NCBI GenBank assembly: GCA_964019165.1
Contig: OZ025270.1
Location: 15,603,159 to 15,667,158 of the forward strand
From: Mastigias papua
Lineage: Eukaryota; Cnidaria; Scyphozoa; Rhizostomeae; Mastigiidae
Length of the DNA: 64,000 bases
Direction: 5' to 3'
The position numbers were made by a program, and so were the translations under genes. The notes beneath the pieces were generated by a model that worked only from the letters and a program-made list of their open reading frames with translations, was not told where the DNA came from and did not search any database. Below, in pieces: positions 3,842-33,513 of this stretch (the first letter of the stretch is position 1; the number at the start of each line of letters is the position of its first letter).

Positions 3842-6800
3842 ATGGCATTATCACTTGAAGAAACTGATAAGCTTATAGAGCGTAAGTATAACTCTGAATA
3901 ATATATGGTTTTATGGTATTATAAGTTTATAGCAGAGCTATGCATTTTACCCTAAATGGGGTTCAATGTGTTGACATTTCCTCTCCATATTACAATCAAA
4001 CTCTTAAAGATATAAGTATCTGGCTTACTAGTTATGGGATCTTTCTCTGTAGTTGACTTGTATTAATTATGCAAATATCAAGATTTTCCGTCCCGGTCTG
4101 AATTAAAACGACTGTAAGGAAAGTAAGGGGGCAGTTGACGATATGGAGTTGAACCGCATATTTGATACCAGTAAACTTTCATAAATGATAGGCGGATTTA
4201 AATCAAAAGAACAAATATACGAGTACGTAGAAATTCCAACAAATCCTCATTTGTACAGTCCCTTTGAATTATGTAGTACAGTGTCATACTCATTGGCAAC
4301 GCAACTGCTTGTCAAGCGGATTCAATTTTCAGTGCACTAGACGTAAACCAAACCGAGTGTTTTCGCTGTTCTATGTTAGTTATCTCTATAGGTTACGCAA
4401 TGCCGCCTTTTATAAGTGACGTTCTGTTTGGTGGAACTTAAGAGGAGTCTTAAGAGCTTTCAAGTTTGAATTAAGTTGTCAGATCAATGTGATTTACAAT
4501 GTGTTTACTACAAGATGTTTGATAGAAGTACGACGCTATTGTACGATAATACCCGACAGACCACAGGCTACTTTCTTGCTGAATGTATTGGTTTTTCATT
4601 GCCCTCTCTGCCATTTCAACATTTCAGTATTAGGTGCAAACAAAGGGTTTGTTGTGGCTGAAGTATGAATGCATACATGTAATTGAAAAGTGGGAATTTA
4701 AAAAACCTTAGGAATGGTTGGCAATTAATTCATGCAATTGAGCTAACCTAGTTTAGTTGATGATGCTTTGGATCATCCAGGATGCTTTATAATTGGCTGT
4801 TTTTTCATATTAATTGCAGATCTGTCAGAAATACAATATTATATATGAATGAATATATATATTGTATGTTGCTTGTTTTGGGCTTCTAGAAAGATCTGTG
4901 GAAGATTTTTCTCATTTTATTCATTAGGTAATACTGTAAATCCTGGATTTGCCCCCCAAAACCCCCTAAAATAAGCCCCATGCTAGAACTTCAATTTGTT
5001 AATAAGCCCCCTTTGAATAAGCTCCTACCTTAGATGATGATGAAGACCTTGAAAAAGACTAATGCTTAAGTTCAAACTATTCTTTTAATATTTTGGAGAA
5101 TAGGAGCTTTGACAATGACCTTTTTGTGTAGCATGTGTCAAGCAACTTTATAAATCCCCCATGAATAAGCCCCAACCCAAAAAATATCAAAAATAAATAA
5201 GCCCCCAGGGAGCTGATCTGAGGATTACAGTAATAAATGTTTACTGTCTTGTTCTGTGTGCAAGTATCTATATTATTTGGTTATGAGTGCAATAGTAGAA
5301 ATTACATTTATTATCTCCAGTTAAGATTAAAGCTTTCCCAATGGTTTTGATCATGTAGCAAAAATACAGTAGAATCCCATCAAGGGAGATCAGAAATTGG
5401 TCTGAGTTAGTGAATGTCCAAGTTAATGGAATCTCTCACTAACTGGCATTTTCCTGAGATATGCCTAACCATCTTCAAAGTCTTGATTCAAATATAATAC
5501 ACAGTCATATTCCTATGGACCATATAATATGACTGCATTTCAAAAAGGGTTTACAATTGTCATTTGCCTTTTACAGTGATTGCTCCTATTTCTCTACTTT
5601 TTGTGAACATGGAAAAGTTAACAAGTATTTCAATAGCCTTTTGAATTCTTGTTGTTTTCCTCTACTTCATCATAAACTAGATTTTCCTTCAATCCACCCT
5701 GACAACATCTGTTTTTGAAATACATGTTTCCATGAGATTACAGTGCATGTTTCTCCTTTGTTAACTTCTTTCTAAATACTTTGTACTTTTCTGCTATTGT
5801 TCACGTGTGCAGCTTACACTGTACTGTGCCAGTTGAGGATATGTCAGAAAATTAATAAAACACCTCAATCCAAAAGTTCAACTCAAACAGAGTACTCATC
5901 TCTGATAGACATTAATCCTTCACTTCAGACAAATATTTCAAGCCTTCCAACACATTTCAAAAGAACAAATTGAGTAGGTAGCCCCAGTAAAGCAGAGTAT
6001 TTTAGAATTGGTATGACTAAGCCTGAGAGAACATCTAGAATTGATATGACTGAGCCAAAATCTGACTTATCTGGGGTACAGCTTAAACAAAGTATTTTGC
6101 CCTGATTTTGGTGGGTCAATCCAAGGGGAATGATAAATCATTCCAAGTAAACAAAAGTCTGGCTTATCCAGGGTATGACTTAATGGGATTTAACTGTTGT
6201 TTGGTATTTGATGCAAACTTAGCATTGAAGCCTCTCATGCTTGGGTGTTTTCTTTTTAAAATAGGAATCAAAACACAAACTAATATTATGTCATGATATT
6301 AAATGTGATTTTTTAGTGCGTAGACAGCTACAGTCAATCAAAGCCAACATATGCAAGAGGTGTAAGAAGAATTTTGAGCTAGAGAAAGAAGTGCGCTTTT
6401 TTGACCAGAAGATTGCATTGTTGATAAATCACAGAATATCTCTTCAGGTAATCAATTGTATTGATGATGTTAATGATAATGGTTCATTTTGAGCATGATT
6501 ATAATAGGAGTATGCCAGAAAATATATAAATTTATATATTTATATTTATGAATTTATATAAATTGAGATGAAGATGCTGACTGATAAAGATTTATATCAT
6601 AATTTTTGAAACTGAAAAGGAGAATACATTTTGTGTGATTTCTATGTGTATGTATATATTTCTTTGAATATAGGAGTTTCCAGATAGCATGTCATTTGGT
6701 AATCATAGAGCAGGTAAGGGTCTTTATCCTTTCTACATCATCTTACAGATGAGATTTGTAAAAGAAGTGATTTCAGATGCTGTGCTTTGTGCCTCTGTTT

Positions 6801-33513: not shown

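Follow-up and report, generated by a model that had tools for sequence, protein, structure and literature searches.

The window analysed here, 64,000 nucleotides of the scyphozoan Mastigias papua (assembly GCA_964019165.1, contig OZ025270.1, positions 15,603,159 to 15,667,158 of the forward strand), contains a gene that we read with good confidence as encoding a complete RasGAP of the GAP1 family of 722 amino acids (aa), retained by cnidarians and sponges alongside the non-catalytic IQGAP and most likely a true RasGAP. The protein combines an arginine finger with the IQGAP-type C-terminus, and a separate canonical IQGAP gene is found in the same genome.

A complete gene with 26 exons

The coding sequence was rebuilt by a home-made exon predictor, followed by inspection of the sequence and comparison with homologues, as 26 exons on the forward strand from an ATG at 3842 to a stop codon at 33513, with every junction in phase. 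The gene spans 29.7 kb on an 18.8-Mb contig of an assembly of 347 Mb in 172 contigs. The start codon has an A at position -3 and a G at +4 and is preceded, 33 nt upstream, by an in-frame TGA (3809) with no ATG in between. The nearest homologue, P0001, also has 722 aa, is 92% identical to the window protein and is apparently spliced; as its source contig of 2506 bases is too small for a 29.7-kb gene with introns, P0001 is very probably the transcript of a related animal. With P0001 as tblastn query 23 of the 26 exons were matched, the short exons 1, 4 and 22 giving no match at E 0.01. The locus is thereby confirmed as a genuine complete gene, and the 26 exons without phase conflict proposed by the first-pass annotation are upheld; its length of 726 aa matches the codon count, stop included, of a 725-aa model that has been corrected to 722 aa. 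The features of the gene are as follows.

3842..3881, +, exon 1, start codon (rebuilt model; N-terminus the same in P0001 and P0003; 5' in-frame stop)
6317..6447, +, exon 2, N-terminal coiled coil (model, tblastn; in the proxy P0001, residues 9-62 are predicted helical)
6674..6713, +, exon 3 (model, tblastn)
6992..7020, +, exon 4 (model; homologues in register; too short for tblastn)
7502..7589, +, exon 5 (model, tblastn)
9069..9151, +, exon 6, RasGAP domain begins (model, Pfam, tblastn)
11506..11600, +, exon 7, carries the finger arginine, R155, within LLRANTAIS (model, alignments, tblastn)
12107..12206, +, exon 8 (model, tblastn)
13244..13300, +, exon 9 (model, tblastn)
13903..13942, +, exon 10 (model, tblastn)
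13943..14318, +, intron 10, U12-like AT-AA, phase 1 (ATATCCTT at 13943, TCTTTAAC at 14302, ends AA)
14319..14434, +, exon 11, start corrected (homologue alignment, tblastn)
18284..18380, +, exon 12, FLR-type motif with R295 (model, alignment, tblastn)
20162..20217, +, exon 13 (model, tblastn)
20607..20708, +, exon 14, K327 and K339 (model, alignment, tblastn)
21228..21278, +, exon 15 (model, tblastn)
22620..22721, +, exon 16 (model, tblastn)
23973..24111, +, exon 17, short DEE-rich stretch, longer than that of relatives (model, homologue alignment, tblastn)
25825..25925, +, exon 18 (model, tblastn)
26634..26804, +, exon 19, RasGAP_C region begins (model, Pfam, tblastn)
27372..27443, +, exon 20 (model, tblastn)
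28416..28467, +, exon 21 (model, tblastn)
29415..29452, +, exon 22 (model; homologues in register; too short for tblastn)
30191..30315, +, exon 23 (model, tblastn)
31628..31698, +, exon 24, C-terminal RGC fold (model, fold comparison, tblastn)
32302..32387, +, exon 25, C-terminal RGC fold (model, fold comparison, tblastn)
33427..33513, +, exon 26, stop codon (model, tblastn)

The Pfam search, scored on the 725-aa model, matched two families only, RasGAP (PF00616; E 1.3e-53 and 182.4 bits, the cut-off being 28.3) and, following it, RasGAP_C (28.3 bits, the cut-off being 26), values well beyond chance. No CH, WW or IQ family was among the matches of the window protein, in agreement with the domain order originally described. 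Upstream CH/IQ exons were looked for with the Rhopilema IQGAP P0123 as tblastn query, which at an E cut-off of 0.01 had no match in the window or in the 20 kb 5' of it, versus 36 at the IQGAP locus of the same genome; as P0123 also missed the paralogous RasGAP exons of the window, a strongly diverged CH/IQ exon 5' of exon 2 might escape this search.

All introns but one (24 of 25) are GT-AG. The exception, intron 10, which interrupts the RasGAP domain, looks like an AT-AA intron of the minor (U12) spliceosome. Its 5' end ATATCCTT occurs three times on the forward and four times on the reverse strand of the window, and TCTTTAAC, the second A of which lies 11 bases 5' of exon 11, occurs seven times on the forward strand and is hence weak by itself. 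Minor introns with AT-AA ends exist, and in animals no other non-canonical pair of ends is as common, according to two reports (PMC8280824, PMC10639083). Because a start of exon 11 at 14310 (AC acceptor, 725 aa) adds three residues without counterpart in any of the 14 aligned homologues, the start was set to 14319, which removes them and regains an arginine kept in 13 of the 14, the remaining one, a sponge row, having histidine. The AG acceptor that lies a single base beyond the AC acceptor was rejected as well, as it creates an in-frame stop codon after the U12-like donor.

Catalytic residues and kinship

In alignment, R155 corresponds to the LFRGNS arginine of neurofibromin, which we take to be the arginine finger equivalent to R789 of p120, and to the VTGNPTV threonine of IQGAP1; the intact finger in LLRANTAIS is thus borne out by alignment. 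Residues were counted in 158 aligned proteins from two GAP1-type searches versus 120 from an IQGAP search, sets which were picked by similarity to their queries and are therefore not independent samples. The finger site holds Arg in 157 of the 158 GAP1-type matches, with a gap in the fragment P0012, and Thr in 120/120 IQGAP matches. The FLR-type motif reads FLR in 107, LLR in 26, MLR in 21, VLR in two and ILR in one of the GAP1-type matches (one gap), and YYR in 120/120 IQGAP matches, while the K339 site holds K (151) or R (7) in the former set and D (86), E (33) or A (1) in the latter. The window protein, with neither the Thr finger nor YYR and with no CH or IQ found in its N-terminal half, lacks the marks of an IQGAP. 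A second arginine in an FLR-type motif had been proposed at R299; the motif is present, but it reads MLR and its arginine is R295 (R298 in the 725-aa model).

Kinship was addressed with a tree of 42 rows and 718 columns, comprising 39 of 240 proteins picked by hand, the window protein, the IQGAP of the same genome and neurofibromin; amoebal IqgC, DGAP1 and GAPA and fungal IQGAPs are absent both from the rows listed by the searches and from the tree. One clade unites the 12 IQGAP rows (100/100), a second the 10 fungal rows (100/100) and a third the 17 metazoan GAP1 rows (99.2/91), the branching of the latter mirroring cnidarian and sponge kinship. Two holozoan protists group with the fungi (93.2/93), and the GAP1 grouping including fungal GAP1 (96.1/90) leaves 12/12 IQGAP rows outside. 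In the approximately unbiased (AU) test a position of the window protein inside the IQGAPs, as a truncated copy, was rejected (p 2.49e-97), as was a clade of metazoan and fungal GAP1 without the filasterean (p-AU 0.0157); a clade of metazoan and filasterean GAP1 was not rejected (p-AU 0.17). With a single distant outgroup, these outcomes leave the deep root soft.

The canonical IQGAP of the same genome has its RasGAP and RasGAP_C exons at C20:1.333-1.343 Mb on the reverse strand. Exon prediction at this locus yielded ITGNPTV, YYRYMNPAIVAP and IQ-motif exons, and the 36 tblastn matches of P0123 run from residue 122 to 1574 of 1647. Four of the 25 introns of the window gene (introns 2, 7, 19 and 23) coincide in position and phase with introns of this IQGAP, 13 of 14 junctions of which, taken from the home-made exon predictor, could be placed in the comparison; the common positions are consistent with an ancient common gene of GAP1 and IQGAP. 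Two other RasGAP-type loci were noted in the genome, L002 with a 404-codon frame and L005 with one exon, which by resemblance we take to be GAPVD1-like and RASA1-like, respectively.

Two homologue searches were run, in which about 8000 candidates were scored and the best 120 of 1660 and the best 120 of 1445 matches considered; the first recovered the GAP1-type gene from at least 16 named animal species, at least 11 of them cnidarian (Rhopilema, Clytia, Hydra, Nematostella, Actinia, Xenia, Exaiptasia, Montipora, Actinostola, Porites and Paramuricea) and at least five sponges (Corticium, Oscarella, Dysidea, Halichondria and Amphimedon). The window copy is therefore not unique, its relatives being already in public databases, where the cnidarian and sponge orthologues figure as 'uncharacterized protein' or 'GTPase-activating protein(-like)'; Rhopilema LOC135684274, Hydra LOC100198420 and the Nematostella, Amphimedon and other proteins are direct orthologues by tree and residues. 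Among the matches listed, the nearest named protein is from Rhopilema esculentum both for the RasGAP gene (80-81% identity) and for the IQGAP (88%), which substantiates the animal host and by itself makes a scyphozoan the most likely one. At least eight named species (Rhopilema, Hydra, Actinia, Nematostella, Paramuricea, Oscarella, Corticium and Dysidea) carry GAP1-type gene and IQGAP together, and with both genes also in the Mastigias genome the proposed survival of the small form beside IQGAP holds. The second search, with a profile built from 22 such cnidarian and sponge sequences, brought up no additional named animal group among the best 120 of 1445 matches; no named bilaterian stands among the best 120 of either search, where many rows (sources lgn and jgi) are without species name and might conceal bilaterian, ctenophore, placozoan or choanoflagellate members, whose absence is not proved. 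Several fungal GAP1-type rows (P0038, P0044, P0046, P0053 and others) are labelled 'glyceraldehyde-3-phosphate dehydrogenase 1', apparently through a mix-up of gene names.

Two observations weigh against a catalytic GAP1 protein related to the fungal family: the fold nearest to the window protein is that of the inactive GAP-related domain (GRD) of IQGAP1, and a clade of metazoan GAP1 with IQGAP is not rejected (p-AU 0.0645). The former would fit a member of the GAP1 family that has Ras, Rac, Rap or Rab as its partner but in animals serves chiefly as scaffold or effector, its GAP activity being weak or absent, and Dictyostelium IqgC indeed binds Rap and Rab without being their GAP (PMC12871552). 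However, the finger, the FLR-type motif and K339, all three altered in 120/120 IQGAP matches, are retained in the window protein, and according to the same paper a change in the finger or the FLR motif of IqgC blocks RasG binding, which makes a mainly scaffolding protein unlikely.

As the top non-animal relatives are fungal and filasterean (among the matches listed), one could suspect that animals acquired a fungal Gap1 horizontally, or that the assembly is contaminated with fungal DNA. Against such an origin stand the 25 introns, one of them U12-like, the location on a contig of 18.8 Mb in a genome that also has an animal IQGAP, the separate fungal and metazoan clades with the metazoan one following cnidarian and sponge kinship, and the four intron positions in common with the IQGAP of the same genome, so that such an origin is very improbable. 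Still less credible is a truncated or partly duplicated, catalytically inactive copy of the animal's own IQGAP, which would account for the common RasGAP-RasGAP_C order, the C-terminal RGC fold common to IQGAPs and the four matching introns, but is opposed by the AU test within the rows used, by a finger arginine where IQGAPs have Thr, by xLR where they have YYR, by orthologues in sponges and other cnidarians and by the majority of the 25 introns that are not common with IQGAP, the common ones being equally well explained by an ancient common gene.

Other features of the window

On the opposite strand within intron 11, a 446-codon open frame (14733..16073, -) matches the secretin-family 7-transmembrane domain PF00002 with 62.1 bits. 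Downstream of the gene, a single uninterrupted frame of 1767 codons (36772..42075, -) presumably represents a BEL/Pao-type retrotransposon polyprotein, and a fragment at 54229..54717 (-) resembles what we take to be a non-LTR (long terminal repeat) reverse transcriptase. The frame 54898..55734 (+) matches Galactosyl_T slightly above the cut-off (24.3 versus 23 bits), and the frame 50888..51505, without Pfam match, may be its upstream exon. Five long stretches made up of TA repeats alone, each between 120 and 200 bases, lie at 18885..19084, 31726..31873, 34369..34488, 34819..34964 and 59959..60096.

A probable Ras off-switch beside IQGAP

Reviews describe GAP1 as a fungal, or fungal and protozoan, family that includes IqgC, and its RasGAPs as neglected in Ras research (PMC12871552, PMC13299636). 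No study of animal GAP1 proteins was found in the literature searched, which mostly excluded subscription papers, and one may exist elsewhere. The fungal members, such as Gap1/Sar1 of Schizosaccharomyces pombe, share with the window protein RasGAP and RasGAP_C without CH, WW or IQ, the Arg finger and the FLR motif, at 37-39% identity across nearly its full length; unlike them, the window gene is animal, has 26 exons and reads MLR for FLR, and in the tree the ten fungal rows stand apart as one clade. Animal IQGAP1/2/3 have the RasGAP fold and the C-terminal RGC fold in common with the window protein, and differ by CH and IQ, by a threonine as the finger residue, by YYR and by D/E where the window protein has K339.

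The first-pass annotation had named fungal Gap1 and the Dictyostelium proteins DGAP1 and GAPA as the best-known relatives of this small, catalytically competent form. Kinship with Gap1/Sar1 is supported by tree and residues; DGAP1 and GAPA as examples of the competent form are not supported. DGAP1 and GAPA, about half the length of an IQGAP, with a RasGAP-type domain and C-terminus and without CH/IQ (PMC13299636), are reported to be devoid of RasGAP activity (PMC12871552, PMC13299636, PMC8305917), to bind Rac and to rank among the truncated IQGAPs (PMC13299636, PMC8305917), the competent Dictyostelium member being IqgC (PMC12871552, PMC13299636). Lacking GAP activity, they are the wrong functional comparison for the window protein, which, compared with their published descriptions, is likewise of half length but retains catalytic residues that point to GAP1. 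By its published description, IqgC resembles the window protein in RasGAP and RGCt, the finger arginine and an LLR-type motif, and it is reported to be a true RasGAP for RasG (PMC12871552, PMC8305917). IqgC is reported to terminate local Ras signals at the actin cortex, in macropinocytic cups and adhesion foci, and fission-yeast Gap1 in Ras patches (PMC12871552).

By analogy with these two proteins, R155 would reach into the active site of Ras to complete GTP hydrolysis, Ras would be held with the help of K339 and of R295 in the FLR-type motif, and the C-terminal RGC part may recruit the protein to cortical or adhesion sites, where local patches of Ras-GTP would be switched off and actin held in check.

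The kind of gene is no surprise: it belongs to a known family, although on a branch of life where that family was not expected, and its sequences lie unstudied in the databases. We lean, by a modest degree, towards a history in which the catalytic GAP1 branch entered animals, still serves in sponges and cnidarians as a Ras off-switch for cortical actin beside IQGAP and disappeared either ahead of the Bilateria or at an early stage of their history. The first animals would in that case have had an enzyme together with an inactive scaffold sister, of which bilaterians retained the scaffold only. Cnidarians and sponges with an intact GAP1 beside IQGAP offer living animals for a direct comparison of the catalytic and the inactive form, and as Nematostella, Hydra and Clytia are both carriers and laboratory animals, a role of the IQGAP-like architecture in ending Ras signals becomes testable in animals.
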